Source of the DNA: Branchiostoma floridae
Taxonomy: Eukaryota; Chordata; Leptocardii; Amphioxiformes; Branchiostomatidae
NCBI RefSeq assembly: GCF_000003815.2
Contig: NC_049982.1
Location: forward strand, 33,213,494 to 33,277,493
Reading direction: 5' to 3'
DNA: 64,000 nt
Shown: positions 19,792 to 59,849 of the stretch, in pieces
How positions within the stretch are numbered: the first letter of the stretch is position 1
How the letters are laid out: each line of letters begins with the position of its first letter
The notes under the pieces: generated by a model
The model's database searches: none
Seen by the model: only the letters and a program-made list of their open reading frames with translations
Told to the model about the DNA's origin: nothing
Program-made: the position numbers and the translations under genes

Positions 19792-21698
19792 TTATATGTT
19801 TGATTTGAAATCAGGAGGACCATCACCACCATCAGCAGTTTGATATACTCCTCCTGTCCCGCCATCAGCGACTTGATCTGCTTCTCCTGACTCACCATCG
19901 ATATCTTGGTCTGCTCCTCCCAACCAACCATCAGCGACTTGTTCTTTTCCTCCCAACCAACCATCAGCGACTTGTTCTTTTCCTCCCAACCAACCATCAG
20001 TGACTTGTTCTTCTCCTCCCAACCAACCATCAGTGACTTGTTCTTCTCCTCCCAACCAACCATCAGCGACTTGTTCTTCTCCTCCCAACCAACCATCAGT
20101 GACTTGTTCTTCTCCTCCCAACCAACCATCAGTGACTTGTTCTTCTCCTCCCAACCAGACATCAGCGACTTGTTCTTCTCCTCCCAAACAACCATCAGTG
20201 ACTTGTTCTTCTCCTCCCAAGCAACCATGAGTGACTTGTGCTTCTCCTCCCGAACAAGCATCAGCGACTTGTTCTTCTCCTCNNNNNNNNNNNNNNNNNN
20301 NNNNNNNNNNNNNNNNNNNNNNNNNNNNNNNNNNNNNNNNNNNNNNNNNNNNNNNNNNNNNNNNNNNNNNNNNNNNNNNNNNNNNNNNNNNNNNNNNNNN
20401 NNNNNNNNNNNNNNNNNNNNNNNNNNNNNNNNNNNNNNNNNNNNNNNNNNNNNNNNNNNNNNNNNNNNNNNNNNNNNNNNNNNNNNNNNNNNNNNNNNNN
20501 NNNNNNNNTCCTCCTGTTCCATTACCAGCGACTCGTTCTACTCCTCCTGTTCCATTATTAACGACTTGTTCTGCTCCTCCTGTTCCATTATTAGCGACTT
20601 GTTCTGCTCCTCCTGTTCCATTATTAGCGACTTGTTCTGCTCCTCCTGTTCCATTATTAGCGACTTGTTCTGCTCCTCCTGTTCCATTACCAACGACTTG
20701 TTCTGCTCCTCCTGTTCCATTATTAACGACTTGTTCTGCTTCTCCTGTTCCATTATTAGCGACTTGTTCTGCTCCTCCTGTTCCATTATTAGCGACTCGT
20801 TCTGCTCCTCCTGTTCCATTACCAGCGACTTGTTCTGCTCCTCCTGTTCCATTATTAGCGACTCGTTCTGCTCCTCCTGTTCCATTATTAGCGACTTGTT
20901 CTGCTCCTCCTGTTCCATTATTAGCGACTTGTTCTGCTCCTCCTGTTCCATTATTAGCGACTTGTTCTGCTTCTCCTGTTCCATTATTAGCGACTTGTTC
21001 TGCTCCTCCTGTTCCATTATTAGCGACTTGTTCTGCTCCTCCTGTTCCATTATTAGCGACTCGTTCTGCTCCTCCTGTTCCATTATTAGCGACTTGTTCT
21101 GCTCCTCCTGTTCCATTATTAGCGACTTGTTCTACTCCTCCTGTTCCATTGCCAGCGACTTGTTCTGCTCCTCCTGTTCCATTACCAGCGACTTGTTCTG
21201 CTCCTCCTGTTCCATTATTAGCGACTTGTTCTACTCCTCCTGTTCCATTGCCAGCGACTTGTTCTGTTCCTCCTGACTCACCATCAGTGACTTGTTCTTC
21301 TCCTCCTGACTCACCATAAGCGACTTGATCTGCTCCTCCTGACTCACCATAAGCGACTTGTTCTTCTCCTCCTGACTCACCATCAGCGACTTGATCTGCT
21401 ACTCCCGACCAACCATCAGCGACTTGTTCTTCTCCTCCTGACTCACCATAAGTGACTTGTTCTTCTCCTCCTGACTCGCCATCAGTGACTTGTTCTTCTC
21501 CTCCTGACTTACCATCAGCGACTTGTTCTGCTCCTCCCGACCAACCATCAGTGACTTGTTCTTCTCCTCCTGACTTACCATCTACTCCACCGTTTTCATC
21601 GACGTCTCCCTTATCTTCACCCATTTGCTTTTCTCCTCCCCATTCCTGTCTGAAGTCTTCCCCTTGGTCTAACAGCCAAGCGCCGTCATCTTCATAAT
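19792..21698 (-). repeat. Gene A terminal exon: 33-bp coding minisatellite
   Basis: After a short unique lead (YEDDGAWLLDQGEDF) the frame consists of 11-residue repeats. Types are GGEEQVTDGES near the start, GGAEQVANNGT in the middle (20513-21262, 23 or so copies), and GGEEQVADGWL toward the end. It closes with PPDFKSNI and a stop. The middle type carries N-G-T in each copy, a potential N-glycosylation sequon. The reading frame is the same on both sides of the internal gap. Opposite-strand and off-frame openings in this block are by-products of the repeat. Confidence 0.88.
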
Positions 21699-24600
21699 CT
21701 ATTGGAAACAGATGAACATTTGAGCAATTGCTATTCAAACACAAAACAATGTAGGATATATGTCTCAATAACAGTGTTCAAGTATAGCATAGTCATTTTC
21801 ATGAGAATGACATCTGCTACTATGACACCAAACACTGGCGAAATTTGCTGTTACTCTGCAGTCTTTCGAAAACACTGACTTAAGGCTTCTTAAAAGATTT
21901 ACCCCAAAAAGAGTCCTCTTCCGATACGTTGACGCCTAGCTTCTTGAAGAAATGGTTCGTCCTCGCGTATTTGTCTTCTTCTTCCTCATCTATAGCTTCC
22001 TCTGCTGCCTCATCAAGCCATGGATCCTCTGTACAACAAAGCGCACGGCATGATCCATCGTTTGATGTTGTGCTGAGTCACAGCCATAAACACTAAGTAT
22101 AGATACCGTATACAAGTATACATGTATAGCTATTGCATTATTAAATCCACACGTTCGACTAATTGGGGAAATCTTTCGGACAAAACAACAGTTTTACATC
22201 TCGATCCGCATGGAAACTCGTTCTTGCGCTAGCTTAACATGGAAACTCGTTCTTGCTGTTAAGCTGATTAAGCTTCTTAAAAGATTTATCCCAACAATAG
22301 TCCTTAAAACAGCTTAACAGCATCCCAAAAAGGAATGATGGCAGATCTTGCCTATTCAGTTACGTTATATAGACCATGATCAAGTATACACGGGTCCTAA
22401 ATATAGTAGACCTTATAGAGTTTTTCTCTGACCCAAACACAAAAGGAAAGGTAGTCCTACCAATCGTTAGCCTAATTCAGTTTCATTTAAAGACGTTACA
22501 AGCAAATAACGAAACGAAATACTTCTTTTCCTAGCCCCCATAGCAGGCTCCCTGGGGCCTTTGTGCTCATAATACACTTTTGCTGGCCATTCCTTTTTGT
22601 ACTGGGTCGCTGATTCACCGGCCTTTGCTGATCTATTGGCCCCGCGGATCAGCAAAGGCCGGCAATCAGCGACCCAGTACAAAATGAAATGGCCAGCAAA
22701 AGTGTATTGTGAGCCAGAAAAGGCCCCAGAGAGCCTGCTATGGAGGCTATTCTTTTATTCTTTTCCCACCTTGCAGTAAGTATTCTGGAACATTTGCTCC
22801 AAGATGGTTCCAAAACTTTTTCTCCTCTTCTAGACCTTCCTCCCCCGGATCCAGCTCCGTTAGGTTCTTGTCTTGCCATTCGTTATCTAGTGTAATAAAT
22901 AGCAGGATAAAGGCTCGAATTTCTTTGTTGTTTTTTCTCTCAAATTTGCAAAGTCCCACTTGATATGAAGCAAATAAGAGGCACAATCAACACTGTCACC
23001 ATTTCCCGCAACACCTATAATTCTAATGTTTTATGAAAGATCCACCACAACATTAGTATTGGTTGATGGCTCAGGATAAACTTTAGCCACGGATAAAATA
23101 TTAATGGCAAATGTTACAAACACGCACTGTAAAACAGTACCGCTAATCAACAGAGGTGATAACATATACATAGTCGAAGATATGTTCACTTTGTCTTTTG
23201 TATCTGTATGATTTGCTATATTTATTTTAGACCAACGTTCACAACAACCTCCAAGTCAACACAATAACTGGCAGCTACCAAAAAAGTGGCCTGGATGCTG
23301 GAATTCCGAAAGTCAAACTCACCAATTTTGCTGTCTATAGCGTTGCGGATTTCGTTTATCTCGTCTAATAAGGCCCTGGCTTGCTCTTCGCCGAAAGTAT
23401 CGAAGAGAAGGGCTCGAACTGTGTGGAAGCAAGGGGAGTCATGCATTTTGATTTGTATCTTCATTAAAAAAAATACACATATTCATTGTTAGCCATAATC
23501 GATTTCTGAATGATTAGATTGTCTAGATTCACCTTTATGATACAGTACACCATAAATATGTCTAATTTGATATAGATGTAGTAGAAGGTATTTTCAACTT
23601 ACACCGCTGTTGTAGATCTGGCGGCAGGTTCATCACGTCTGTAGCAAGCTCTTCTATTCCATACTGTGTTTTTTCATCTGAAAGAAAAGAAAGCATGACA
23701 GGTCACCAATACATGAAATCACGGGACACCTCTTCATACCTTTGGAGACAGTCAATCTATCTTTCAATCAATCGATATGTATCGATACATTCCAATCTCT
23801 ATAGTTTGTCATTGTCGTGCTGGATGGTCAATCCTGAATCTTGCTAGGCAAATTTGAATTTGCCATTATGTGATTTCAGTCACATGATCATGACCATTGG
23901 GCACATGCAAATTTATTGAATTTACCAACATTGCGCATTGCAATATCAATCATTTTCGATTTGACTTTGGCAGGGACAGGGTCAGCGGAATTTTGAGACG
24001 ATCGCGACAACGTTTCTTGGTGAGAAAGATAAGTGGGTATAGAAATCATTTGTAACTGAAAACATTTTCTCTATAGTGGCCACCTGTCTATAGCGGCCAC
24101 ATTTCTCCAGCCCCTTGAGTGGCCGCTATAGACAAGTTTGACTGTACATACATGTACTGGTAGTAGTTTCCGCACACCTTCTTCCATTGGGTCCGCTCCG
24201 GTCTCCACGTCCTCAACCACAATTTCAAACGCCTCCGCCTCCTCCTCGTCTACCCATAATTCCTCTGCTAGGTCATCGATCTCTAGAACAAAGAATAGTT
24301 TCGCGATTCTGTCAATGATTTGATAATGGCACCTATGTTCATCTACTAGAATTCTTTCAGAAAAAACATGGGGGGTGCGTCTTGTCTGCCACATCTGGTA
24401 AATACCAGAAATAGTAAATACCTTAAATTTTGTATTTGACTCTACACACTGTATAGTGGATGAGTGCTTCAGTGTCCACTAGTGTAGTTTCCGGCAGGGT
24501 TTGGAAACTTCATAGCCTGTAGATGTAATATTACCGATTTGTAAGCATTCTAGTGGCTTTTCATAAAATACTGAATCAACACCGAAGGCTTCCAAAAATG

Positions 24601-26780
24601 GCTAACGTTCATAGGATGTTTAGACTTTTGTAAACATGACACAGAACATCATAAGCACGCTATAAGCACTATAACGACAAAGCACATTTACCTGGCAGTT
24701 CACTCATGTAGATTCGATATGCTTCATCGAAGATCTGCTGGGTTGCCTCCTCGCCCATTCTTTTGATGAATACTGACTTAACTGAAACAGGAAGTACATT
24801 CATAGCGAAGTTTCTAAAATAAAGATGTCTATATTTACATACGAGGTACAAAGCAATCGCTTTCAATATATTCTATTTAGACTAAAGGAAATATCTCAGA
24901 GGGACAGGTGTGTTCACCATAAACCCGACGCTGCTTCGCTTCTCTAACATAATAAACTCCTACGTAACAAAGGTCAGGCGAAGCAGCTGTAAGTATTGTT
25001 GCCGCAAAATTCGCTGAGTGATGATTAGTCATACAAATGGCATGTGTTTAGAGTGCTCACCTCTCTCAAGCTCCTCGTCGCTGAGAACCTGTAATCTTTC
25101 AAAAACTTGCATCACCTGTAGACGGAACGGAACGTCTGTGGAGAGAAATTTAGAACTGTTGCTTGATTCACTGAGCAATCTGATAGCAGAACACTACCCT
25201 GCCTCACTTTATTACAGTCAACCCAGTACAGATGACAACGTCTCCAATGTAACCACGTTTTGGTGTAATTTTCCCCATGGATACAAGCATTGATACACCG
25301 CAAGTACCGAAGACTGTGGTATTATCATGTTTTCTAGTAACCATGTAAATCCAACCATGGATATCATTTGATATTGATGTCCGCCCTGTCCATCAACTCG
25401 GTTGAAAGTCCTACCGTGAAAGTGGCGAATTGATAATTTGCATAGTCAACATCTTATCATGTCAATCATCACTTAAGCTGTCTACATGCCAAACAAAAGT
25501 CATGAGGGCCCCTTCGTGAACCATGTTGCTTCAAAATCTTTTAATCCCCCCCTGCCGTTCCATAAAAGCCACCTAGGAGCCCAACCCTGTGCAATGTCAT
25601 GACCATTGCATGTCCAGAGCACAGAGCAGAGACACCAAAACCAGAAGTCTTATCGCAGTACTATGGCAAACCACAAGGGGCCGTAATCTAGTAATTTCTT
25701 TCCTTAACCAACACCTACCATGTAAGAACATACTAGATAACTAACTTGCACACAGACACACAAACACACAACTCCGAACACATACCATTTTTGAGAAAGG
25801 TAACGGAGAAACCTACTGTCATTTTCGTGGTCCGTCTTCCCCTCCTCGTCGTCGATGAGTTCTTTGAAAACCTCCTCGTCTTCATCACTGAGGTTGTAGT
25901 CGTCTTTTAATGTTTTTATCACTGTAGGAAATTAGGAACCAATCGGTAGACAAAACTAATTCTGCTGATGCTTAACAGATGGAATGAATGAATAGCACGA
26001 TTACATTGGCACTTGTCTTTTGATCCGTGTGGTATTATTTAGCTATTTTTAAATTTTCTTCACCAATATTTTCATCTTTAATCGAAGCAGTTATCTGTGA
26101 TTAATAGTGCACGTAAAAGCTCGAACAGTGCATGTAAATGGCGCTCCACTGTTGTGGCATCATGTATAACTACACCCCATAATATCATCGGCGAAGGCTG
26201 CAACAACATCATACTCATGACTACACAATCAGTGACCTGTGCTGCCTTCTAAATGCCCTGTAGATCGTCTAAACCCTCGTAGACTTATTGCTAGTCGTGT
26301 TGAAGCTTTCGTCTTTCTTTCAGAAACAAACACGCTTGGCGTGACACAAACCCGCAGAAGGGAAGTGAACTGTGACAAAATTGTACATGTATACTCAATA
26401 ATGGTAAATTGCCGTGAAGAAGGACTGTCCTAGAAAGGTCACATATCTCGAAGGCACGTCCGCCATGATGGAAAATAACTTTGTAGGATACAAATTCATA
26501 TTACTTGGAAAACTTAAAGTGAAGTTATGTAACAGTGGTCTAGTTATATCAAAACGTTCTCAAATCAACTAGCTTCTTGCCATGTCATTCCCTCAATCTC
26601 TGATATAACTAATCCACAACTACATAACATCCTACGTGATAGTTCACCTGGATAACAAGATGTTTACTCACGTTGCTGTTCATTTTCCTCCCCCGACTGG
26701 GGGACTGGGATGCAGTGAACACTTTGTAGGACACACAGGGCCAAAATAACTATCAGGTGAAACTTCATTATCACTGCCAT
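19792..26780 (-). CDS. Gene A: secreted modular acidic protein with repeat tail
   Basis: Ten exons, all internal junctions phase 1: 26780-26672, 25921-25817, 25135-25061, 24781-24692, 24282-24178, 23677-23603, 23418-23323, 22886-22770, 22028-21903, 21698-19792 (TAA). The product is about 934 residues plus whatever an assembly gap hides. Exon 1 starts MAVIMKFHLIVILALC and encodes a classic signal peptide, cleaved probably after SVHC; a second Met at codon 5 could also start. Exons 2-4 and 5-7 are two copies of one helical module (for example FKELIDDEEGKTD; FRLQVMQVFERLQVLSDEEL). Exons 8 and 9 carry FWNHLG and FFKKLG motifs in acidic context. Exon 10 is a long 33-bp-repeat tail. If the last intron were retained, translation would stop seven codons past exon 9. 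The function is unknown; a secreted or extracellular-matrix role is inference. Exon sizes match genes B and C exactly up to exon 7. Confidence 0.87.
20283..20508. other. Assembly gap (226 N)
   Basis: Unresolved bases fall inside the gene A repeat array, between the GGEEQVADGWL and GGAEQVANNGT sub-arrays. The repeat number is therefore not known. Confidence 0.99.
22531..22749. mobile_element. Foldback MITE in gene A intron 8
   Basis: A long hairpin: CTAGCCCCCATAGCAGGCTC on the left mirrors GAGCCTGCTATGGAGGCTA on the right, and the arms continue inward through AATACACTTTTGCTGGCCAT and TGTACTGGGTCGCTGATT to a small loop near 22630. The flanks TTCTTTTC and TTCTTTTA match at 7 of 8 bases, suggesting an 8-bp target duplication (hAT-like). 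The right end lies about 20 bp from the exon 8 donor. Confidence 0.85.
24055..24144. mobile_element. Small pogo/Tigger-like MITE in gene A intron 5
   Basis: GTCTATAGCGGCCAC and GTGGCCGCTATAGAC form a perfect 15-bp stem. The minus-strand end reads TA-CAGTCAAACTTGTCTATA, typical of pogo-like termini inserted at TA. It lies about 33 bp downstream of the exon 5 donor in the gene's sense. Confidence 0.6.
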
Positions 26781-31568: not shown

Positions 31569-34500
31569 TTATTCCTGGTGGCCCCCTGTAAGAAATAGAA
31601 ACACAATTTCAGCACATGGCTATCACAACAATCCAAATCTTTAGCTTCAAGGATCAATGCACGGCTTGCTTGTTCTGGGATTGCTCTGTTTGTATTTCTG
31701 GATACCTCCACATGATTGCCGATATTACGTTCTTCAAGAATCAAGGTCACAAGCAAGTTCGTCTCGTTATAATCGCTTTACTCAAAACATTTTGATAGCG
31801 CTCCATATACCGCTCTACATTAAATTTTTTACGGATTTACCTATTTTTTCTCACCAGGTGTCTCTATGCCTAACTTCTTCCAGAAACTCTTGGTTTCCTT
31901 GGCGTCGGCCGCTTCTTGTTCTTCTTCCTCCTCCCAAGCCTCCTCCAGATCCGGGTCATCAGTCGCCCACGGGTCCTCTGAGGACAAGACAAGCCAGTCC
32001 ATATTTTACGTTTCTCATCACTTGTTGTTTGCCCCATCTAGTGTGTTTTTTTACGCTCTCGCGTTAGACTTGGTTCTCGTAGAGAATATCATTCATGAAA
32101 TTGATATGCCGTGTGAATAATGCACCGTGTGTCAGCTTGGTAATGCCATGAAATTTACCTTCACCAGATGTAATGATCCATGACATCCATGTTTCCTCAA
32201 ACCGTACATAGTGTATTGTGATTGCTTTTATTTCAATCCAGCTATGAACATGCAGAATCAAGTGGCCATAATTCAACTGAAGCCATATATCATAAATCAC
32301 AAGCACACTTAGGAAAGAAGTCCTTCATACCTACTAACAAGGCGTCTGGAACTTCAAGTCCAAGGTTTCTCCAGAACCGTCTTTCCTCCTCGACATCCCC
32401 CTCCTCCGAGTCCAGTGCCATGTCGGTATATTCCCAGTCAGTTTCTGATATAACATTATGAATGAATGAATAAAGACCTTCATTGCACATTTTTGCCACA
32501 CCGGACTAAGTATAGGTCACAACAAGACATGTTGAAAAGATACAGTTCACAGATACAAAATGAGACTATTGCTGGATAAATTCAACTTCTCATCGCTTTT
32601 CTGTTATAGTGGAGATAAAAGAGCAGATATGTTTTATGACCGTTGGTTTGTCTAGTTGCATTGGGAATATGAATTTTTCTACAGAACTTATATTACGTGT
32701 ATGAAATAAGAAAATTGGTTTTGTATGACCTTATACAGCTCATTTCTCTCTGCGGTATACAATCTACACTCAATTACAAATTGACGGTCGTCCTCTATTC
32801 TATCTAAATTACAATATTTGCATAGTCTTTGTTCCAGAGGGATGCGAGTATGTCTTCCTGTTTCAATATAAATGGCAGTTAGACAGTGAGAATAGCAAAT
32901 CTGATCACAATCATAAAAGTGATAAAGTTGACATGTTACTTGTTCTTTTGTCTGATTCTGATAAAGATTTTATTGCAAATTCTTGCCCAGGGACTACATA
33001 CAAGTAACGACACGTGCTTCTGTGAGATATTTAGAGCTTTTGTGACTTTCTTATTTTCTTCATCAATCATGCAAGTACGGCTGTAATTAGCATAGGCTTT
33101 AAAGGACCCACCACAATTACGCAATTTGTATGAAAGACCTTGCTTTAGGCAGAATCCAGTTGTAAGATTTCATCATTAACACGTTATGTACAAGATGGCC
33201 TTGATTTCTTGATTCAGAAGTGTCACAAGCGTGAAGTTCCAATGATACATCACTGAGGAATTATGGTACTTTAATATCAATCAGGCCCTTGCTTGCATAA
33301 TTGTTATCTGCTCATGTCCCTCCCACCATGAAAAACGTAACATATGATGATGTACCTGAAGTTGACTTTTGATTCTCATCTGTATCATGTATTGTCTTCT
33401 TAGACTGACTGGCTATTCTATAGAAAACATTGTAATTGTAGAATTTCCTCAAGTCTTAATCATGCTTAAAAGCCCTAATTTGCATGATTTGTATCTAATT
33501 GTGTACATGTTGTCTTCGGGAATCCATCCTCAGTTATCTTAGCAAACACGCTACTGCAGTATCACAATTAGCTGCTAGGGGGCCAAACCGATACCACTTC
33601 CTTCTGACGTCAATAGCTATATGCCATCGGAAAGTCAGTACAATACCATGTTCACATTGGTATGATAGGATTTCATCATTGAGTATGCAAAATTAGTCGT
33701 AATTTGTATAATTTGCATTTCATTGTGTGCATTTCTGTCTAAGCTACCTACATTCCCAAAATCACAAGAATCCGTACCGCGAACAGAACATCCAAAGGTA
33801 ATAACATGATGTATAAAAATGACAATGTGATACAAGCGGTCACTCTAGTGGCAAATGTCAACATCTAAATATAAACTTGGAATTAAGTTGGCGACGAAAA
33901 AATCTTTTTACAACATGCGCGTGTTGTATGATTTGGGAGGACAGTAATATTCTACAAAGCTGCTACGCTTGCGTGTAGATATATTTTTCCCGCTACGAAG
34001 ATAAACCCTGTTTTGATGAAAGCTATGCAATAGTTTGCTATCGTCAAAAATGGCATTATAATGTTTCGAAGGCCAATGATAAGAATAATTTACATAAAAG
34101 GCGGGATCTTTAGCTTTCCACTGCCCCTGAGAAAGAAGTCGAACCCAATAAGTAGGAATTTTGGAGCATTTAGATTAGAGTAGAGACGTCCTCTATTGCT
34201 CTATATTATTTGTTCCTTTCATGTTACCTGCAATGAACCATCGGGCCAGAACTTGCAATAAACTATTATCATGATGTAGTGGTTGTGTAAAAAGAGTATC
34301 TTTACTCAGTGGCATACCAACCTAAAGAAACTATTTACGGATGTCCATAATCGTTTGCAAAGTCTGGGGCACAACTATTGAAATAAGACAGCTTACCTAA
34401 TAGGTTGTTCACGTGGATGTTAATTTCTCTCATCTTGTCCAACAGTCGTCTGCCCATGTCTTCACCATATCTGTTAATGATCAGGCCTCGAACTGCAGAC

Positions 34501-36264
34501 AAAACAAAGGCCACGACCTTGTTTACTTTTATACCTGTCGCACACTATATATTTACCTGTGATGGCAAGCTAGCTGGCTTGGTAAGTCTGAATGGAGACT
34601 TCTTGCTTCATTACACCATAATCAATACACGAGAAAATAAATTCCACCCGGAGCAATGATAGACAGACAGAGCTCATTGGTTTTGTAAAATCATAATGGG
34701 TAAATGTGTTTCATATATGTGCTTTTATAAGGCTAACTTTGAAGAAACTTGTTGAGTCAGAATCTGGTCTGGATGGCCTGGAACGTCTCGCAGCGATGAA
34801 AGACAGACTGTACTGGAAGTCAAACTTCATTTGCTGCACCTCAGAGGATGACAAATGATAATGATGATATGCCTGGCGCTTTTTGTCTCTCTTCCGTCTC
34901 GGCAAAGCAGCCGTGAAAAAGAGTGGCTTTATAAAATCTTCATGTCCAACACTACTATATAAACCTGTGGTGGTACAGCATTGTTCAATATACAATGTTG
35001 CCATTTGCCCACGTTGCTGATAAGAAGTCAACATGGAGACCGCAACCGGGCAACTCATATATCCCAAGAACCACTATCGACTGGAATAGTCTACCATATT
35101 CAACCACCCTTCAAGCTAATCCCGTTAAGTTCAAGGAAGAGGTGTTACAACACCTGAGGAATGGCAAATAAAACAGTAGTACTGCGCACTGGATGATTTG
35201 CCCCAACACTAAGGGGTGTTACCCAGTAACCTTACAAGAACAAGAATTGAATATGTTATATATGGCCTGTAGCCATACTTTAGTATAGCCTGAATGTAAT
35301 TCTAGTCAGTTTACTGGAGCCCCCATACCCCCCTCTCCATGGGAGTCCCGGTGAAGTAGCTAGTATGACATTCAGGTTAAAGTACGCGTTCGTTCAAACA
35401 GTGTGTCGCATTAAACATGTATATCATATCTCAGTCTCTGATTAAGAATCAACTCACCTAGTTCCTGTTCATCTTTAGGTAGGGCAGTCACTGAAGAAGC
35501 AAACAACCCTATTCCATAGAGAGTTTTGTTATCTGTGAAGACATGTGTACATGTAAGCTGTATTGATATCAAGAACATCACAGGAATGTTACGTCAAGCT
35601 TATACAACAACTTATACAGCTCGTACTGAAAGTAATAGTTGTTTAGGACAAACACGTCCCATAATATGGTGTGGTCATAATAGCTCGGTATAAGAAGTTG
35701 TTGTGTTTATACTATAAATTTTTATTATCATATAGCCAGGCGCTGTGGACCAATCAGAAGGCCCCATTCCATGTTGGTTATATAACGACGCCGTAACACA
35801 TAGATTCTGTCCAGCCCGGTGTTAAAAGAAATCAACAAAGGTGCTGATTCTTTTAAATACCTGACCAATCAGAAGGAGCGATACACAGGAAAGTAACCAA
35901 TCTCCCTACATATGTATGTACCAAAGAACAAATGTGAATTTTCAGAAATTCGACAAATGATTTCACTCGTATAGTACCAAGGAATCTATGTGTTATTCAG
36001 GAGTTTGGGTAGGCTATATGATAATAACGTTAACGCTCACTCGTTGGTTTTATTAACCGTTAGATATCGTTCCTAACGTTACATAGAGGTTATGTATTTA
36101 TTTGGCTGTGAGCGACGGCGCCGAGCAAAAAGGTTGTGACACACACAAACACACACACACACACACTCACACACAGACGCACACGCACACACACACACAC
36201 ACACATATACATACACACACACACACACATACGCACAAACACACACACGCTCACACACAGACGC

Positions 36265-36302
<38 letters not shown>

Positions 36303-44464: not shown

Positions 44465-47400
44465 TCAGTCGTCATCATCAGCAAACTCATCATTGGACCC
44501 GCCGTCTTGGTCGTTCTTGTCCCCTTCTTCACCGGTCAGATCCTCCAGACCTGCAGGGAGAAAACTTAGGTGTTACATTCACAGTTGGATACAAAAGCTT
44601 TTTCCTTGTAAGTCACTTTGCTGTACTATGTCCTTTTATGGTAGACAGGTCAGTCTGCTCCATCAAAACAGATTCGTCATCTTTATAAAATGTCAATAGC
44701 ACTCAAGCCGACAACTTCTTATCTCACTGCACTGGGGAACGGTGCGGCACTGCGGGGTTCGTTCACTGCGGCACTGTTGTGTTATTTTCGCCCATTTTTC
44801 ATAACTTGGATATTGCGTAATACTTCAAAGTATGACTTTATCTCTGAAATTCCTTGAGTATCTTTCGAATACCGCATTGTCACACCGATACCGCAAGTGC
44901 AGAGGGATACCACCTTAACTTACCTATTGTAACATTTGCTGCCGAGGCACGATTTTCTTTCACGTTATCATTTGCTGTCTGGTCGGCGCCCACTGTAGCA
45001 TTAGTTGGCCCCGAGTCAGCTGCAGTTGTTTTCTGTGCACTGGTATCGTTCCTACTGTTTTCCATGTCCTTAGATGGCAACTCTGTGGAGCTACTGTTGT
45101 TCCTGACTGGTGTAGGAACTGTACCATCTACGACATCTACAGCGTTGGTTACATTACTTTTAGCAGGAAACTCGTCTGATGTAGCGTTAGTCTTCACTGT
45201 GGAGATGATCATCTCAGATATTGCAGTTGGTGTGGTTATGGGTTTGCTAACATCTTTGCCACCTTTTGTTGAATGTTCGTCTTTGCTCACAGCAGTAGAC
45301 CGGACTAACACAGAATCTACAGTAGGCGATGGCGTGGCTGAGATTAGGGTGCCAACTAGGAAGCCTCCTTCTGACGAACTGTCATCCTTATCCTGTCCAG
45401 ACGTGTTGACGTTTGAATAGACTTCAGTTTCTATGACAGTCACATTGTCGGCAATACCCTGATCATTTGCTACAGAACTGTTACCTCTGCTTGGCGAATT
45501 TGTGGTGTTGTTCAATCCATTCGTCTCGTCATTGCCCACTGTAGCAGACGTCAGTGAAGTATCAACGTTTCTCCCTGGGGTAGCGGTGGTGACCCGGATC
45601 ACTGCAATGTTCTCCACGTTACTTATCGTGACATTTGTTTCAGTTGTCTCACTCCAAATATCAGTGTTTCCATTATCATAGCTCTCCATCGCTGTGATTG
45701 TGTTCGGCCGTTTGGTAGAAGCAGTGGCTGTATTATTGTCGATCAGGCTTGCGTCTGAAACAGCAGTGGTGCTGAATGTGTGATGTGTTTTCTCCTCCTT
45801 TGCCGTCAACTCTTGGGGAGGATTTGCACCTGCAGACTGCGCTTGAGAAGGATTTGCACCAGCAGACTGTGTTTGAGAAGGGTTAGCACCTGCAGACTGT
45901 GCTTGAACAGGGTCTTCACCTGCAGATTGCTCTTTAACCGGGCTTACACCTGCAGACTGTGTTTGAGAAAGGTTAGCAGACTGTGCTGGAACAGGGTTTT
46001 CACCTGCAGACTGCTCTTGAACAGGGTCTGCGCTTGCAGACTGTGCTGGAACAGGGTTTGCACCTTCAGACTGGGCTTGTGAAGAGTTATCACCAGCAGA
46101 CTGAGCTTGAGAAGAGTTTGCACCTGCAGACTGCGCTTGAGAAGGGTTTGCACCTGAAGACTGCCCTTGAACAGGATTTGCTCCTGCAGGCTGCTCTTGA
46201 ACAGAGTTTACACCTGCAGACTGTGTTGGATTATTGTTTGTACCTGCGAACTGTCCTTGAATAGGGTTAGCATCTGCAAACTGCTCTTGAACAGGATTTG
46301 CACCTGCAGGCTGCTCTTGAACAGCATTTGCACCTGAAGACTGTGCTTGAGAAGGGTTAGCAACTGCAGACTGCTCTTGAACCGGATTTGCACCTGCAGA
46401 CTGCGCTTGAACAGGGTCTGCACCTGCAGACTGCGCTTGAACAGGGTCTTTATCTGCAGATTGCCCTTGGACAGGGCTTGCACCTGCATACTGTGTTGGA
46501 GAAGGGCTTGCACCTGCATACTGTGCTTGAACAGGGTCTTCACCTGCAGATTGCTCTTTAACCGGGCTTGCACCTGCAGACTGTGTTTGAGAAAGGTTAG
46601 CACCTGTAGACTGCTCTTGAACAGGATTTACACCTGAAGACTGTTCTTGAACAGGGTCTGCACCTGCATACTGTGCTGAAACAGGGTTTGCACCTACAGA
46701 CTGCGCTTGAACAGGGGTTACACCTTCAAATTGCTCGTGAACAAGGTTTGCACTTGCAGACTGTGCTGGAACAGGGTTTGCACCTGCAGACTGCTCTTGA
46801 ACAGGATTTACACCTGAAGACTGCGCTTGAACAGGGTCTGCACCTGCATACTGTGCTGAAACAGGGTTTGCACCTACAGACTGCGCTTGAACAGGGGTTA
46901 CACCTTCAAATTGCTCGTGAACAGGGTTTGCACTTGCAGACTGTGCTGGAACAGGGTTTGCACCTGCAGACTGCTCTTGAACAGGGTTTGCACCTGCAGA
47001 CTGTGCTGGAATAGGGTTTGCACCTGCAGACTGTAGTGCATTGGATTTCCAAAGTCTTGGACTTCTTCCATCCCGTTGTCTCTGTTACTACCGAGGTCAC
47101 CGTTACTTTCACCTCCCTCATCAGGCACGTCTACATTCAACTCGCCCCAAAACATCTTGTTTTCCTGATCGTCAGCTACTTTGTCGATTTTCTCCGCGGC
47201 TAAACTGATCCCATTATCTCCGTTAGGGTTCTCTGAAAGGGAAGTACATAAAATCTGGTCATACGTTCGTAGAATGGTGCAAAATATTCCATTCTACTGT
47301 GACAGGATCTAAACCCATTATACCGTTGGTTACGCATGTTTAGTATAACGCATTTCCCTACCCTTTAACGTCTCCATTTCCTCGTGGATCGCCCTGATTT

Positions 47401-50400
47401 CCTGGAATATCATGGCTGCCTCCTCCGATCCAAATTCTTCCTCTACCAGGCTTCTAACTGTAATGTTTATAGAACTATTAGCGTTTCCGCCATCTATTGT
47501 TGCATATCATGTGTATAAAAATTAGTTTGCAACATTTATAACATATAACCAGTGTGGATAAGAATTGTAATGTGCTAATTTGCAAATAGTGAATTGTACT
47601 ACTGTATCTTATTGCTGATTTGCTTTCATCTGTTTTGCAAGTTATCTTAAGCAGTAGACCATGATGTATTATAAGTATTTTATTGCGCAGTAAGTATTGT
47701 CGGCGTCATACTTTGAATGAATATGTGACCATGTAAATTTTGATACCGTTTACGTACATCGCTCTTCCTGCTCTGGGGACAGTTGATCATAGCTGTCTGC
47801 CAGTTCGGAAAGTCCGAGCTTGAACTCCATATCTGTCAGAATCAATTGAAGGTCAAAGATAGCTTAAGTATCTAGTATCTAATTCTTCTTCATTACATTT
47901 ACATTCACATTTCATCGTCAACGATAAAAGTGAGCAAACTAAAAGGCAACAATCATGTTACAGTGCTTACAACATACACGTGATTTCCCACTCATATGCT
48001 CGCTTTTGATAATAACACTTGAAAACGCAACAATATGGCATCGTTTAACCCTTGAACACCATTCAACACTCTCAGGTTGACCAGAGTATTATCACTTGTT
48101 GGAAATTGGATAGCGGTTTCCTGGATTGCCCTGGGGATTCAAAACATGCATCCAAACAATGCAACGGTCTTTTGTCGCCTTGCGTCAAGAAGGTCGGGTA
48201 AACAGTCATACCAGAGACGTGAAAAAATAGTACATGATCATTTCTCTTCTTAGCACTCAGAGAAGGACAATAGGATATGAACACACTACATCACCATTAG
48301 ACGTTATTGGCTCCTGTAGGGGCCTATTTGGGACTATAAACGGAGATAAGCACATCGGAGGATTTTGACTTTTAACTAGGAAACACATTCCCTCTATAGC
48401 CTAGTCTCTGAATGGTAGAGAAACACAATTATATCTAGAGTAGCGTTAGAGATGTTACTCAAAGTGCGAACCTTCCGTTTCTACATCCTTTCCATCTTTG
48501 GTATCCTCAACGAGTTCTTCAAAAGCATCCTCTTCCCCTTCATTTAGTTGGAAGGATTGTCGCAACTCTTCATTTGCTGAGGGCAGAATTCATAGACAGA
48601 AATCTGAGTTTAAGTAGATAGAAACATGCCCAGACTTCGATGGGTCTAAAAGTTCTCTAAAACAAGGAAGAAATGTATTTTGTTCCATGCAATTCAATCA
48701 AATTGAACGGCATTTGGGGAAAAGGTTAAATAAACATCCAGTTATAAGTTATTGCTGGTTTTCGGGGCAAGGGGTTGAGGGGTGGCTATTTGCAACTTAT
48801 TTTCAAACAGTTCCGGGCAGCACCCTTCTGTAACAGAAACACAGGTGTTGAAACTGTTAAGTGTGTAATACAGGTAACCATTAGAACCTGAGACAAGTCT
48901 TACATGTCCACAACAAACCAGGGTTAGTAATAAGCTCGCTGATAATATTGCACAAAGACCCTTCACTCTGAGATGAAATAAAAGCACGTGTACTCGTGGT
49001 GACTCCATATGTCAGAAGAATTACGGTTACATGTATTCTGTTAACTCTTTTCAATATGTGCCTTCATGCCACACCGATTTGATTCATGCTTCCCGGATTT
49101 GCAATTTGCTTATTTGAAAGGAAGGTACCAATGTACCTGACACGCATCAACCTCAAATGTTTGTTCCAGAGCTTTAGAATGGCCTTAATATTCTAGTGAA
49201 ACATCAACATAAACGTTTATGTTCTACTGTTGCTTCAGTCATTGAAACTGTCTGTACAGAGAAGCGCAGTGCATCGGTGTCTACGACAGAATACTTGGTC
49301 TTACTCACATTCTATTTTTGCCTGCTCGTTTAATTAACTTTCTACAAAAATCCAAGAACCAAGAAATCTGTCATGTCTTACTTCTTACAGAACCTGATCA
49401 AGGATAACATTTCCTGAGCTATGTAATTGGCTTACCTTCTTTTTCGCTCTCAAATATTTCTTCCGCCGCCTCGAAGACTTCGTCTGCTCTGACTGCCCCC
49501 ATCTTACGACTAAAAAGCTTTCTTACTGGAAAAATTACAGTCGACAATAAGACTTCTTGTGAACAAGATATCAAGAATTTACACAATCAAACTTTTGAAA
49601 TATCGAATTGGAAATATTGTGAGATCTATTATAGAAGGTCATTCATTTTTGATTAACTTCAAGGCCTGTATTTTCCATATGTGTGTGTGCAATGCAGATG
49701 AATAAATGTACGATCAGCGTGAATGAATGAATGGTTTAACGCTAGTTCACCTTTATCCGTTGGGTAACCTTTATCCGTTCCCTTTTAAGAACAATGTATT
49801 TAGGGGTATTAAGTCAGATGGTGGTTTCAAACTGCAATATTTTCAAAATAGTACAATTTGAAACTACCGTCCATCGACTTGATACATTGATACCCTTTCT
49901 CTGAAGACCATATTTAGCAACACAACGAAGATAGGTTACCTCGCGGATAAAGGTGAACTAACGTTACCTCTGACATACTCACCATCATCATAGAGGAACA
50001 TACAGGTCTTGAGATTGACATATTAGGGGATAGCGAATTCGAACATATGAATATATCCATAGCATGAATATGTGTCGAATTATTATTGAAGGTTACTTAC
50101 TTTTTTCCATTTCCTCGTCGCTCATCGTTCTTAGTTTTCTCACGATTTCTTCAACCTGGAGCCTGAAAATTATTTCTACACGAAGTGATAAAATGTGTTA
50201 GCCTTATAAGGGCAATAAAGTACATCTATCTCGTTCATGAACTTATGAATGGATTGTCATGAAGTTAGGTATGTGGTTGATTCTGGTTCAATTGCAAAAT
50301 TGATTAGATTTCGGACCCCTGGCAACTTTTCTAGGTATTGGAGCAGAATTTCTGGCTAGCGTTCTGGCTAAGTTATGGCGAAGATTTTGGTCTGTGTAAT

Positions 50401-52931
50401 GGTAGATATCATTTTTTACTTGAAAAGAAATGACTCAAGTTTGGGCTCCTAGCATCTTTATTTTGAAGGCCGATTTTGGCCCCCTGGTGTGTGATCGTGG
50501 TACTGTGGCAGAACTTCCCGTTTTTGTATATTCTGACCTTAACGTGCTGTGGTCTTGACATTTTTGTGGCATTGTGATGCAAGCAAGAAATTGTGTAGGT
50601 TTCGGCCGCCTAGTAGCTTGCTCTGGAACTGCTGGGTCTTTTTTGTCAAAATCTTCTTTGAAAAATAACTGAAAAAAGGAACGACGGATTTCCATAATAT
50701 TTAGTGGACATAGTTGTACATAATGAAGTGTAAAATATGAAAACTAGGATTTGATTTGAATAATTAATGAAAAACATCTATATTTGTTTCTATTATAGGA
50801 CTCAATAGTATGGAGAATATATAGATTATGGCAGGTGGAACATTAATTGATACCAGTTATGCAAACATTACGCACACATGTTCCTAATTTACATAATGAG
50901 TACATTAGTGCCACAATTGTCATAACTAGTAAGATTTGACTGTCAACATTTTACCTGTGTAAGGTAGTTAACGGTGTATATAACCAGGCATAGCTTATGT
51001 GTAAGGCATTTGCATAATCAGAATATTTCATTATTTTATAATATTAGAACTCTTGTTACATATGTAACTTGATTCAAGAGGAACATTCCTGATACACATA
51101 ATCGAAACCATAAATTGTATCATACCTTTACTGATATAAAACGATATCATATCGTAGTGTATAAATGTGATTTTAAACGAGGGAATTTTACTGAATTCAT
51201 CTAAAGTTTGCTACTAACATCTTTGCATATTATTTGTATTGTAAACAGGGCTCGAGATACCACCTGCATATGCAGGTTAATGCAGGTAATATTGGAGCTG
51301 TGCAAGTATTTCTGGTGTCTACCTGCACCTAACCTGCACTGGTCCATGTACTAGGTTTTATAGATACAAATCCTATAATGTAGGTGTATATGGATTGTTT
51401 TGACTGCATTGACTGTTACCACCTATAGATTATAAAATAGGAATGGTCCCTGAAGAAATTTAGTCTAATCCATACTTCTTAAATCCAGAATGGTGCAAAT
51501 AAAATTTGTCTGTTGCAGGTTATTTCAAATATTACCTACACCAGTGCTGGTATGCAGAGAAAAGTATTTCGAGCCTGTAAAGAAGCATTGCTTGGCGAAG
51601 GTATAAGGTCGTTGAATTCTAATTACTTACTGTCTTGTTTAGGGTCAACGTCATTCTCCTCATCTTCGATCAGCTCCTTTGTTGCTTCCACTTCTGCAGC
51701 GTTGAAGTGATATCTTCTCTGTAGCCATGACAGCACTATTTCATGTAAATATGATGATGTAAATATAAAGAATAAGTAAATAGCAGCTAAATGACTCGTT
51801 CGTGTACATTATTGGGTTCATTACGTTACATGACATACTTCCGGTAACCAGAAGTGCCAGAAGTCACCTTTACTGTCTCTCATCCCGAAATACGACCCCC
51901 CCCCCTCCCTCCCATTTCAACACTGGACGAAGCTTGAAGTTTAAACGCTAGATTCATTACTCCAGTCCAAAGGCAATGATAATAACATACTCTTATAGAA
52001 GGTACACACAAAATTTTGATTTGAAAATTCCCTTGCCGACGTCATGTGTTGACCGGGGATTTCGGCACTTACATTACTACATAGTCAAGTTTGGTGTTCG
52101 ATCTTTAATGCAAGACATGAAATATAGTATCATTGTAAATGGTTGTAAATACGTTTTTTGGGAGTGCCTAATACTTAACTTTTCAATTAACATAGGATAT
52201 ACAGTAGAAGCCGTTTAATTTCACGGCCTATTTGCCAGTGAATTTCGTGCAATTATCCGAATGGTGCAATAATGCGAAGTTATCTGGCTGGACCGCAACG
52301 GTTTGGGATTTGGGGATTCCGTGCAGTTAACAGAAGTGTGCGTTAATCCGTTGTGCAATTAACTGGCTGCTACTGTATGATTGATAAAATATTATTTTCT
52401 TATTGCTTTGGAATAATGTACAACGCTGCTGTATGTTTCGCACTATACTCAGTATACATCACCAATAAGGTTATAAAAGAACGTTGCTTGTACCCTTCAA
52501 TGTATAGTCGCTTGTGTCAATGTTATCCTGTTTATGTAGATCTCAAATGAGAAACTGTTCAAAACTATTGGGTTGAGGATTTGTTGCAGACAAGTCAGGA
52601 TTAATGGTGATGAGACTTGTACCAGATAGACTGGAAAACCCAAGTCATGCTGGTCTCCACGGGGTAAGAGACGTGGAGCAGTCATGGACCTCCAAGCAGC
52701 CAACATCAGCCGAAAGGATGCGAGGAGGATGGCTGCTGACAGAGCCTGACTGCCTCATGTTTCGGAAGACACGGGAGCCCCTAAGTCTTAGTAAGTATAT
52801 AAAGAAGTAAAGAAGTCAAACGTACGTGTATTTTCCTGTCTTGACAAGGTGGACCCGTTGACAGCAGCCGGGAAACACTTCACTTCACATGTAAACCCCA
52901 AGAACAGGATAATAAGTACGACTGACACCAT
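44465..52931 (-). CDS. Gene C: secreted modular protein with mucin-like repeat tail
   Basis: Ten exons, all internal junctions phase 1: 52931-52826, 51735-51631, 50175-50101, 49525-49436, 48576-48472, 47832-47758, 47457-47362, 47232-47113, 47023-44924, 44550-44465 (TGA). The product is about 985 residues. Exon 1 encodes MVSVVLIILFLGFTC then EVKC, a signal peptide. Exons 2-4 (TKELIEDEENDVD; FRLQVEEIVRKLRTMSDEEM; VRKLF-like IRKLFSRKMG) and 5-7 (FEELVEDTKDGKD; KLGLSELADSYDQLSPEQEE; VRSLVEEEFGSEEA) are the paired modules. Exon 8 has KMFWGELNVDVP. Exon 9 is a 700-codon repeat and Thr/Asn-rich exon. Exon 10 is acidic, ending DEFADDDD. The exon 5 donor (GTTCGC) is weak. Intron 8 is only 89 bp; its acceptor was chosen because it alone restores the repeat frame in phase 1. 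Confidence 0.86.
44719..44917. mobile_element. MITE, GGTGCACTCTCACTG family, in gene C last intron
   Basis: The interior (GGTGCGGCACTGCGGGGTTC, GTTATTTTCGCCCATTTTTC, ATATTGCGTAATACTTCAAA) matches the 8318 and 14511 copies. The right end GCAGAGGGATACCACCTTA directly abuts the exon 9 donor hexamer (918-923, GTAAGT on the minus strand). The left end is truncated relative to relatives. Confidence 0.75.
44924..47023 (-). repeat. Gene C exon 9: 30-bp coding repeats plus mucin-like stretch
   Basis: From 47023 to about 45826 the frame consists of about 40 copies of a 10-residue unit, AGANPVQAQS with variants (EQ for AQ, SGVNP, AGADP). One unit lacks 6 nt in frame. Then follow about 300 residues rich in Thr, Ser, Asn and Val with at least a dozen N-x-S/T sequons (for example TETNVTISN, LNNTTNS, RNNSSST). 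The exon is exactly 2100 nt, phase 1 at both ends. Every repeat holds TCTGCAGGTGCAAAC, which resembles a splice acceptor and donor. Confidence 0.85.
48577..49435. other. Gene C intron 4
   Basis: No extra family exon was found. A minus-strand 88-codon frame (48742-49008) with a hydrophobic start is discussed under rejected items. Nothing else was recognised. Confidence 0.4.
49744..49959. mobile_element. MITE with AGTTCACCTTTATCCG ends (216 bp)
   Basis: Left AGTTCACCTTTATCCGTTGG with GGTAACCT is mirrored by AGGTTACC and GCGGATAAAGGTGAACT. TAACG-like flanks occur on both sides. It lies in gene C intron 3. A relative sits at 59526 in gene D intron 4 by family numbering. Confidence 0.8.
50240..51030 (-). 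repeat. Dispersed repeat, TGCATAAT family
   Basis: Minus-strand copy in gene C intron 2, with GGCCCCCTGGTGTGTGATCG, GTACTGTGGCAGAACTTCCC and degraded TTTGCATAATCAG motifs. It resembles the 18690 copy. Confidence 0.55.
52202..52375. mobile_element. Pogo/Tigger-like MITE (174 bp)
   Basis: The ends are CAGTAGAAGCCGTTTAATT and AATTAACTGGCTGCTACTG, flanked by TA on both sides. TA target and CAGTA-type termini fit the pogo/Tigger group of Tc1/mariner elements. The interior has no frame. It lies in gene C intron 1. A related, interrupted copy is at 60035. Confidence 0.85.
52600..52790 (+). mobile_element. Probable LINE 3' fragment
   Basis: The plus strand encodes MDLQAANISRKDARRMAADR then A-stop, resembling the last residues of LINE polyproteins, where a basic helix ends in A-x-D-R. 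The upstream frame is broken (SHAGLHGVRDVEQ in another frame). It lies antisense in gene C intron 1. Confidence 0.5.
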
Positions 52932-52988
52932 TGTTGCTTCCAATTGAGGTAGCGCACGGTTACTTGGAAGACCCTGAGTTCACAGGTC

Positions 52989-56090: not shown

Positions 56091-56099
56091 AAATAACTA

Positions 56100-56960: not shown

Positions 56961-57109
56961 CGATCATAGTAGTATATCTTTCGCAAGCAGAGGGTTTCCG
57001 CATCTATGGTCAAGCCTTGTTTTAAAAACATCCGCAAGCCTTGTTAAAAGGACTTGAATACGAAATTCGAATTTAAATAGCTATAAAAAATATTTGTTAA
57101 CAATCTTGT

Positions 57110-59849
57110 TCAGCCCTGGGTAGTCCCGATGTATTCTTCCATGGCCTTTTCAGCGTCTGCTTCAGCGTGGGCTAGATGCGGAAAAAAGGCATGGAATAAA
57201 TGAGTTAGCTGAACGCTTGATATTTTCACAGCCACAATATAAACTATCAAGTGCCTAATAAATATGTATATAAACTATAAAATAATAGTGTATATGAATA
57301 CTAATTGAAAGAATTGCTATTCTGTTGATATATAATGTTAGTAATACACTAGTATTCATATTGCTAGTCGAAAAGTGGGACCGCATGGCGCAATCGTCAG
57401 CGCGTTTGACTCTGGTCCAGAAGGTCCTGAGTTCAAACCCCGACGTGTCACCGATCTTGTGCCCTTGGGAAAGGCACTTTACACGACTTTCCTATATAGG
57501 CTACAAAAGTCTTCAGCAAATTGAAGTTGGTAGCCTCAAAAACGGAAGAAAACGATATCATGGTTCAGGCTATGTTGATCACCTTTTTCCTGGACTTCCT
57601 TGCGTATAACCGTGATGGCGTCCCAGATCTGCTGTGCAGTTTCTTCTCCGTAGGTTGCCGTCAGTAGTGCTTTCTCTGTAAAGAGGTGGTCACTTCATGT
57701 AAATGCCCCTTAGTCACGTTCTGTGCATGTTTTGTACATACGATTATGTTTTGACATCATATGTTGTCTATGTTATGTGCGTCTGTAATGCCTAGGTTAT
57801 GCCTAGGTTACACATAGCCGACTTTGGCTCCCGAACACTAGCCGACTCTTAGCCGACCCAAGTCGGCAGTAGTTCGGGAGTAGGCTGGTGTTCGGCTGTT
57901 CCATTTTTTTGCGCCGAACATGTCCCGAACATTCGGCTCTGAACGGCAACTCTGGAATGGGTCGGTTGGTGGTCGGCTGGTGGTCGGCACGGTCGGCTAG
58001 TGTTCGGTTGGTGTTCGGGAGTAAGTCAGCAGTCAAATTAAATCTTAACCACGCCATAAACATTGCTGATTTACTACCAGATTGTTTCCAACTTACCAAT
58101 GATTCACCCCAAGACCCTAGACAAATCTCTGCTAACTCATTCCCAAGCAAAAAGACTATTGCCAGAACGTAGACGAATCACTCCCGAACTTCACACGACC
58201 GACATCCAGCCAAACTGAGCAAAAAGACCCATAAATGCCGCACGGGAGCTATGGTCGATCTAATTTTGCTCTCTTGGCGAAGTTTACAAATAGACCAAAG
58301 GACATTCTTGATTAAAACCGAAAAGGTGCCCTCTTTTGAAAATCGCTGATTATGTCTATTTCAAGTCGAAAAAGGGTCGGCAATCGGTTGGGGATTAGTC
58401 AGGAGTGATTCGGCAGTCTGCGGCTAGAGGTCGGGATGGTTGGTGATAGGTTAGTTTAATAGTTAGCATTTGGGACATAGTCGGGAGTAAGTCATACTGA
58501 GATTGGTCACTATGGCTAAATAAAACAGAAATAGATAAAAAGAAGTTAATGAATAGTGACCAAAGAAGATAACTGTGCTGTCTTTTCGGCGGTGATCTTT
58601 TTGTTCGTGAATGATTACATAAAAATATGCTATGGATTCGTCCTATGCACTGACATGAAATGATGCTTAATATTCATATTATGGGTTTCATAAATGATGC
58701 GAAAGCTACATGCGAGTTGAGATAGTGATAAGTAGTACAGTTGCTAACCCGTGTCCTGTTCTTCAGGCGTCAGACGGAACAGCTTGGCGCCGTCCTTGTT
58801 GATCCTCCTCATGATCTTAGCGCCTGGAGAGAGCGACAAAATCAGCCAATATAAGGGCGATTATACCGGCTATATAGATACAGATACAGTATGAAGCAAA
58901 CCTTTCTATTTAGAAAATACCTCGCGGGTATGAGACAAGCCGATGGCGTGCGTCTGTCGGTCGTCCTGATAATTATATTAAAAATTCCCACAACTAAGAC
59001 ATCAAAATTTATTGAACTATGCCTGTTTTGCAAGGAGCGTTTTGTCTTGCCTGGTCCGAGGGCAAGAGGACATAGGCGGTTCATTATCATGACAGGGATG
59101 ATTTTTTTAAATACATTTTTACGTGAAACATACATTTGTATGCGCGACGCTCTGTTGACCATAAAATCGGCCAACTTTTCAGCGATCATGAAGTACGCCC
59201 AAACCTCGTCAAGAATGTGACAGAGGTATAAAGACGCCACTGAACGACTTTCTGAAAGCAATATGATTTCTTACTTTCGTCGAGTGGATCCTTTCCGTTC
59301 ACAACATCCTTCTCCAGCTTTTTGAGAGCATTCTTCTCATGGTAGTTCATCTGGAAATCACTTTGAACTTGTGCCTTCGCTGTAAAGACAGGATGTAGGT
59401 TTCAGCAGTCTCCACATAAGATACAAAATTAGACTCTTCAACACTGTTGGAATGATCCAATTTATCAACAATTAATGCTAGGTGAGGAACAACAACACAA
59501 GCGTGAATAGGGACGTAGGCAATACTAGCTTACCTTTTATCCGTGGGGTAACCTATATCCATTGTATTAAAAACAGGGCATTTAGGGCCGGCATTTAGGG
59601 TTATCAAGTGGTTTCAATACTTAGTAAAGTGTTACAATTTGATTCCACCGTCCGTCGACTTGATATCCTAAAACCATGTTCTTAAAACAAGGGAAATAGG
59701 TTCATGACTTCGCGAATAAAGGTACACCCGGTCTAAAACAAGAAACATCACCTGTATACCTTTTAACTCAGCCTCCATGATTTTTTCGCTCACATCAAAG
59801 AGTTGTTGAGCAAGGTTTGGTCCGAGGTTTCTACGGAATTCTTCCTTTA
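57110..59849 (-). CDS. Gene D: family member, 5' exons not found
   Basis: Five exons, phase 1 throughout: 59849-59760 (90 nt), 59379-59275 (105), 58823-58749 (75), 57675-57583 (93), 57171-57110 (terminal, TGA). They correspond to exons 4-7 of genes A-C plus a tail. Seen: VKEEFRRNLG-like start with LAQQLFDVSEKIM; NALKKLEKDVVNGKDPLDE; RRINKDGAKLFRLTPEEQD; KALLTATYGEETAQQIWDAI; tail HAEADAEKAMEEYIGTTQG. There is no FW-x-x-LG exon and no repeat tail. The signal exon and exons for the first two segments were not found up to the 61155 gap. The gene is either incomplete in the assembly, truncated, or too diverged upstream to see. The donor of the 75-nt exon (GTTAGC) is weak. Less acidic than its relatives; function unknown. 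Confidence 0.76.
57375..57500 (+). mobile_element. tRNA-derived SINE
   Basis: GGGACCGCATGGCGCAATCG resembles a tRNA start with A box (TGGCGCAATCGTCAGCGC). GGTCCTGAGTTCAAACCCCG supplies the B box. The tail TGTGCCCTTGGGAAAGGCAC matches the 27165 SINE. It lies in the last intron of gene D. Confidence 0.8.
57785..58500. mobile_element. TIR element, ACACATAGCC family
   Basis: The left end is AATGCCTAGGTTATGCCTAG then GTTACACATAGCCGACTTTG. The interior matches the 16511 copy (CGAACATTCGGCTCTGAACG, CGCTGATTATGTCTATTTCA, GATTCGGCAGTCTGCGGC). The right end is degraded. It lies in gene D between the 93-nt and 75-nt exons. Confidence 0.7.
59526..59730. mobile_element. MITE, TTATCCG family
   Basis: Relative of the 49744 element: TTACCTTTTATCCGTGGGGT and AACCTA on the left, CGCGAATAAAGGTACA on the right. 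Shared interior words are ACAATTTGATTCCACCGTCC and GTCGACTTGATA. It is located 30 bp upstream of the acceptor side of the 105-nt exon's neighbour, between gene D exons at 59379 and 59760. Confidence 0.7.

Follow-up and report, generated by a model that had tools for sequence, protein, structure and literature searches.

An Array of Paralogous Genes in Branchiostoma floridae

The window, a stretch of 64,000 nucleotides of the Branchiostoma floridae genome, carries on its minus strand four paralogous genes (g1 to g4), each encoding a signal peptide and two modules of ~91 residues, with the g4 signal peptide lying outside the window. The exon plan is the same throughout, each module being built from three phase 1-1 exons, of 105, 75 and 90 nt in the first module (B, C and A) and of 105, 75 and 93-96 nt in the second (B', C' and A'). 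The window yielded 22 module exons, each of them open, in phase 1-1 and bordered by AG and GT; exon B measures 105 nt and exon C 75 nt in seven of seven copies each, and exon A is 90 nt in all four copies of module 1 and 96, 96, 96 and 93 nt in those of module 2. As a chance control, each gene was left out of the profile by turns and its exons were scored against other-class candidates, from a pool that took in both strands and comprised 2730 AG..GT stretches, all open and 60-129 nt long. In this held-out test, 19 of the 22 exons beat all candidates outside their own exon class (B 7/7, A 8/8, C 4/7), and the three failures were the C' exons of g2, g3 and g4, which occur in the independently predicted proteins P0001, P0016 and P0005, respectively.

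Exon 1 of g1 (26672..26780; all feature coordinates are window positions on the minus strand) contains the start codon and signal peptide (MAVIMKFHLIVILALCVLQSVHC...), with a hydrophobic leader and a phase-1 donor, GTGAGT. It is followed by module 1 exons B (25817..25921), C (25061..25135) and A (24692..24781) and module 2 exons B' (24178..24282), C' (23603..23677) and A' (23323..23418), all of which passed the held-out test. Beyond them lie a phase 1-1 exon with an FW motif (LEEEKKFWNHLGANVPEYLLQ; 22770..22886), identified by its likeness to the FW motifs of g2 and g3, given hand-counted borders and absent from the g1 gene model used, and a tail exon (19792..21698) of 11-aa repeats of the NNGTGGAEQVA type at 33-nt spacing. 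The g1 tail has 23 N-glycosylation sequons, counted in known letters only, with a run of N at 20283-20508.

The signal peptide exon of g2 (41428..41512) is identical in P0001, and exons B (39848..39952), C (39318..39392), A (39023..39112), B' (36815..36919) and A' (34397..34492) match LOC118414701 and passed the held-out test, while C' (35458..35532), which failed it, is present in P0001. The FW-motif exon (32331..32444) has hand-counted borders, and the acidic last exon region (EDPWATDDP...; 31850..31987) was placed by a genome match at 33245343-33245480; the final residues of P0001 may be encoded in an additional exon beyond it. In g3, exon 1 with its signal peptide (MVSVVLIILFLGFTCEVKC...; 52826..52931) is the same in P0016, as are exons B (51631..51735), C (50101..50175), A (49436..49525), B' (48472..48576) and A' (47362..47457), which passed the test, and C' (47758..47832), which did not. 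The g3 FW-motif exon (44924..47232) runs on into 10-aa repeats of the SAGANPVQEQ type at 30-nt spacing and then a stretch rich in S, T and N, and its frame shifts close to the exon start relative to its relatives; the last exon (LEDLTGEEGDKNDQDGGSNDEFADDDD, then stop; 44465..44550) was drawn from P0023 with hand-counted borders. For g4, exon A of module 1 (59760..59849), B' (59275..59379) and the 93-nt A' (57583..57675), all of which passed, and C' (58749..58823), which failed, agree with P0005, and the last exon with its stop (HAEADAEKAMEEYIGTTQG; 57110..57171) is like the end of P0005. Its signal peptide, B and C exons lie to the right of the window at +72214, +69470 and +68984 in window coordinates.

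Annotated and predicted proteins agree closely with these models: g2 is 100% identical to NCBI LOC118414701 across its 210 aa, g4 is identical to P0005, a protein from a B. floridae x B. japonicum assembly, at 198 of 202 positions (98%), and residues 1-258 of g3 equal LOC118414900 (P0016) as judged by eye. The original prediction of same-strand paralogues with a common exon order and exon length was thus borne out by all 22 exons and by the matching NCBI and lancelet proteins, and so were its three signal peptides, seen in g1, g2 and g3, with that of g4 found outside the window at C4:33285591-33285707; signal peptides are likewise present in full-length P0005 (g4 type) and P0009 (g6 type). The four genes that it described as an array are real, but they are a part only of an array of at least six genes that extends, in window coordinates, to +84.6 kb or beyond. 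Two further members and part of a ninth, with identical exon lengths, are on two other chromosomes. The array is one of paralogous genes for secreted two-module lancelet proteins.

Relatives and Annotation

The 26 proteins that were retrieved all come from Branchiostoma, and in precomputed annotation none of the 26 has a Pfam domain. That the proteins belong to no nameable family also held up in our searches, in that no match listed in Pfam scans of the models and members reached its cut-off, where one was shown, a PDB sequence search gave no significant match and fold comparison gave no clear one. Two sub-threshold Pfam candidates were set aside: the Decapeptide repeat region (PF25296; cut-off 45 bits) scored 26 bits with the g3 model, 17.4 with P0020 and 22.1 with P0021, and the Tri-helical domain (PF24465; cut-off 27 bits) scored 21.3 bits (E 0.00038) with the g5 model only, one of 13 members. 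Existing annotation labels the proteins variously as 'uncharacterized', 'Hypp', 'mucin-22-like' (the label of a B. lanceolatum g3 relative in one source) and 'abhydrolase domain-containing-like'. Exon anatomy, then, defines a single family that automatic annotation had divided among differing labels, and named genes are now at hand for expression and structure work.

Evolution of Modules, Heads and Tails

In a tree of 16 module rows, the copies of module 1 and module 2 were split by one branch with support of 79/89; the split recurred in 78% of 200 bootstrap trees and in 0 of 500 shuffles, and two of the 13 inner branches of the tree were strong. The separation of the two modules on the tree has only moderate support, and we infer that module duplication preceded gene duplication. 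Almost certainly, the tandem array of at least six genes and the members on two other chromosomes go back to an ancestral gene of lancelets, which encoded a secreted protein of two tandem helical modules with three phase-1 exons per module. The family offers a clean example of a secreted module encoded by several exons of almost constant length, for which duplications within the gene, in tandem and to other chromosomes can be inferred.

The proteins had been described as fast-changing, which suits their tails better than their helical heads. The g2 heads are 81-85% identical among the lancelet proteins compared, and in seven pairs of the g3 type the heads are 71-81% identical versus 37-54% for the tails. 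Values of dN/dS for g3-type heads (0.32, 0.34 and 0.38 in three gene pairs; 0.23-0.59 with the modules taken separately) indicate that these heads are under purifying selection. Such values weigh on the idea that the proteins are soluble humoral or mucosal immune effectors whose heads bind microbes or toxins and whose copies are retained by gene birth-and-death. The tandem arrangement, the further copies on two other chromosomes, secretion, relatives found in lancelets only and the small soluble proteins g2, g4 and g6 would all suit immune effectors, but the selection on the g3-type helical part is purifying and not diversifying, full-length identity is 77-87% in six orthologue pairs and the Pfam scans show no immune domain above cut-off, and we consider an immune role unlikely. 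A reproductive or egg-coat role, with repeat tails diverging between species, could draw on the faster divergence of tails than heads and on the variation in repeat number among relatives. However, the heads are conserved with dN/dS far under 1, and low-complexity tails diverge anyway through repeat slippage, which counts against such a role and leaves it distinctly unlikely.

Structure, Composition and a Possible Function

The AlphaFold model of P0005 consists of helices only, in two modules (pLDDT 80.9, pTM 0.72), and that of P0001 was poor (pLDDT 62.8). The pI is 4.05-4.50 for g1, g2-type and g3-type proteins, 4.54 for P0009 and 4.80-5.58 for the g4 type, whose proteins are only mildly acidic. 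The low pI of most members, and two turn aspartates invariant in the seven modules compared, could point to secreted acidic Ca2+ binders in which the helix - D-x5-D (often D-P-x-x-E) - helix turn of each module holds a cation. With more members, though, some of these aspartates are just nearly invariant, the second is missing from module 2 of g6, and the EF-hand pattern (canonical 12-residue loop) occurred in none of 14 proteins, nor was an EF-hand among the listed Pfam matches. D-P-x-x-E is an ordinary helix cap, a simpler reading of the turn than a metal site, and Ca2+ binding seems improbable.

Behind the head, the peptide FW-x-x-L-x-x-x-V/T-P is conserved in g1, g2 and g3. A short motif, present twice in g2 and among acidic spacers, might be taken for the active peptide of a hormone precursor, and a Gly-Lys/Arg-Lys/Arg triplet is found in six of 14 proteins, in P0003 directly before the first FW; yet no triplet stands behind an FW motif, the position required for an amidation site, and dibasic sites number 1-8 per protein in the 14, making hormone precursors a highly improbable identity.

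The best explanation overall, which we hold tentatively, is that the lancelet two-module family comprises structural or barrier glycoproteins of mucus or extracellular matrix. Still a little more tentative is a joint mechanism for this role. Secretion, predicted from sequence, would take the proteins out of the cell, where the two helical modules, on the model, would form a compact head that may assemble or dock, and the FW peptide of g1, g2 and g3 may be an attachment segment. The long acidic repeats of g1 and the g3 group, with many predicted N-glycosylation sites, would serve as a hydrated spacer, which is not a common function of the family because g2, g4 and g6 are without a long repeat tail; the short tailless members g4 and g6 might be partners or caps. 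Together the members would have a structural or barrier role, as glycoproteins, in lancelet mucus or matrix, the tissue being conjectural. That the family is specific to cephalochordates and has a new helical fold of two five-helix units, with heads that polymerise or dock through the FW peptide and tails that differ among members, one array thus supplying the parts of a mucus or matrix specific to lancelets, is a narrower proposal and an unlikely one.

The tails of the g3 type are 256-713 aa long; that of g3 itself has 18 sequons, a figure from a doubtful splice. The helical part is without cysteine in the members inspected, the g1 modules included, and hardly any cysteines would be available for gel cross-linking in the tails (three in g1; none in g3, by the doubtful splice), which sits poorly with mucus or matrix, as do the pI of the g4 type and the low Ser plus Thr content of the tails.

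Comparison with Known Systems

The original prediction had pointed to the nematode SXP/RAL-2 domain (PF02520). SXP/RAL-2 proteins are secreted and helical, and the profile, at 109 positions, is roughly the length of one module; this hint was not upheld, as profile scans of modelled and member proteins listed no PF02520 match (at E<=1 for four models and E<=0.1 for ten proteins), and it was not among the best 25 of 28 families listed for 13 members. Mucins, like this family, are secreted and repeat-rich, and the family has predicted glycosylation. Mucins are O-glycosylated proteins of gels or surfaces with dense Ser/Thr(/Pro) tandem repeats; here, Ser plus Thr make up 9% of the g1 tail, 21% of the g3 tail (by the doubtful splice) and 15-19% of four full g3-type proteins, and 9-21% is low against a classical mucin; no mucin-type cysteine-rich domain was among the listed Pfam matches for family members. 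Spidroins have a helical N-terminal domain of five helices plus a repeat tail, and g1 and g3-type proteins, also secreted, resemble them in layout, with a long repeat tail of low complexity behind a predicted helical head.

Amphioxus has 4559 lineage-specific orthogroups, mostly common to three species, and tandem duplicates are commoner in B. lanceolatum than in vertebrates (PMC9673378). The part of that paper drawn on here handles such orthogroups in bulk and does not describe the two-module family, which, with relatives retrieved from lancelets only and with its genes duplicated in tandem, resembles amphioxus lineage-specific orthogroups in general.

Gene Anatomy and Extent of the Array

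The original prediction of same-strand paralogues with a common exon order and length was borne out. Comparison of six-frame translations, together with a reading of splice borders, yielded models for four minus-strand genes, each with two three-exon modules (B, C and A, then B', C' and A'): g1 at about 26.8-19.8 kb of the window, g2 at 41.5-31.9 kb, g3 at 52.9-44.5 kb, and g4, which starts right of the window and ends at 57.1 kb. Within the window, exons B and C are 105 and 75 nt, respectively, in 7/7 copies each, exon A is 90 nt in all four module-1 copies, exon A' is 96, 96, 96 and 93 nt across the four second modules, and all 22 module exons have phase 1-1. When one gene was left out of the profile per round, 19 of the 22 held-out exons scored above every out-of-class candidate among 2730; the three that were missed are all C' exons, one each from g2, g3 and g4, and occur in the predicted proteins P0001, P0016 and P0005, respectively. 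The window, at C4:33213494-33277493, is Florida lancelet DNA, and the spliced g2 model built from it matches the Branchiostoma floridae protein LOC118414701 isoform X1 (NCBI) at 100% identity.

The window's exon profiles were then run over 70 kb of flank on both sides. On the same strand, the right flank held the remainder of g4 and two extra genes, g5 and g6, and the scan of the left 70-kb flank produced no additional exon of comparable quality. In g4 and g5 the opening B exon measures 111 nt, and a GC donor follows the final A' exon of g5. The C exons at 68984 and 75724 were first sought at exactly 75 nt, so that length is not independent evidence; both were listed at 75 nt again by a scan allowing 60-129 nt, the profiles of which already included them, and the exon at 68984 is present in P0005, a g4-type protein. 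For g6, neither the first B exon nor the signal-peptide exon could be placed, nor could the signal-peptide exon of g5. At window +118644 (~+118.6 kb), about 34 kb from the remaining g6, a 19-residue piece has a beginning similar to that of g6's first B exon in the g6-type protein P0009, and may reflect a misplaced exon, a long intron or a partial duplicate.

Family Members and Relatives

A whole-genome search flagged two further chromosomes. At C5:7.54 Mb there are two complete g3-like genes with exons of 105/75/90/105/75/96 nt, and at C2:32.95 Mb a g4-like second module with 105, 75 and 93-nt exons in order. Across three chromosomes the family thus numbers at least eight genes plus a partial ninth, a lower bound because the genome-wide search ran without g3 and g6 queries. 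In one C5 gene, a long ORF (C5:7534092-7535885) that, by eye, reads like a LINE-element reverse transcriptase separates the A' exon from the tail. A weak match to g2 exon B' (36%, E 5.42) stands at C2:32640665-32640796, about 0.3 Mb away from the g4-like module on that chromosome.

Three protein searches (E ≤ 10), in which candidates needed shared words and a length range and 192, 8000 and 8000 were scored, gave 4, 15 and 11 proteins. All 26 different ids were named Branchiostoma: floridae, belcheri, lanceolatum, or floridae hybrids with belcheri or japonicum. Six orthologue pairs were 77-87% identical at full length; for g1, no counterpart was recognised among database proteins. The belcheri-hybrid proteins of g2, g3, g4 and g6 type share the same listed contig size (30,621,613 bases), and the array therefore appears to be conserved in that hybrid.

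Evolution of Heads and Tails

A tree was built from 16 modules, equivalent to eight genes, one of which is a B. lanceolatum g2; neither the second of the C5 genes nor the partial C2 member was included. One branch of this tree parts all module-1 copies from all module-2 copies (support 79/89; 78% of 200 bootstrap trees). This split, which is only moderately supported, suggests that the internal duplication preceded the gene duplications. Pairwise dN/dS values for g3 and the two C5 genes were 0.34, 0.32 and 0.38 for the six exons together, and 0.23-0.59 by module. In seven pairs of g3-type proteins, the two-module heads were 71-81% identical, as against 37-54% for the repeat tails, which ranged from 256 to 713 residues; in two g2 pairs, head identity was 81 and 85% and tail identity 68 and 73%.

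Where the repeats begin (window 47023-47113), g3 as assembled here changes frame relative to its relatives, and the other frame is the one used by NCBI's two longer g3 isoforms, P0016 and P0018. Directly downstream of the g4 stop is a 33-bp minisatellite (window 56373-56872), open in minus and plus frames. Read in the same sense, its consensus agrees with that of one stretch of the g1 repeat at 19/33 positions (reached by 3/5000 shuffles) and is unlike that of the other stretch (15/33; 2035/5000 shuffles); it is possibly a lost repeat tail of g4. Other repeats in the window include tandem 232-bp units at 61736-62811 (roughly 4-5 copies, most of them 93-95% alike), which sit in the long g4 intron separating exon C from exon A of module 1, and inverted 444-bp copies at 30517-30960 and 42767-43210, 85% alike and probably copies of one mobile element. 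On one or both strands, long CA/TG-rich simple repeats at 15883-16519 and 36087-36447 contain extended open frames that are very likely meaningless.

Function and Standing

Our best reading, a tentative one, is of a putative set of secreted structural or barrier glycoproteins. Counted against it are the moderate support for the module split, the failure to recognise a g1 counterpart among database proteins, the frame change in g3, and the g4-type proteins, which are short and only mildly acidic (pI 4.80-5.58). That the family instead comprises putative immune effectors seems unlikely, a role as reproductive proteins is more doubtful, and putative metal binding is the least probable of these. 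A comparison of amphioxus with vertebrates gives 4559 lineage-specific orthogroups for amphioxus, and finds tandem duplicates to be commoner in B. lanceolatum than among vertebrates (PMC9673378). Amphioxus being rich in lineage-specific families, the array is interesting as a family and, as a kind, ordinary.
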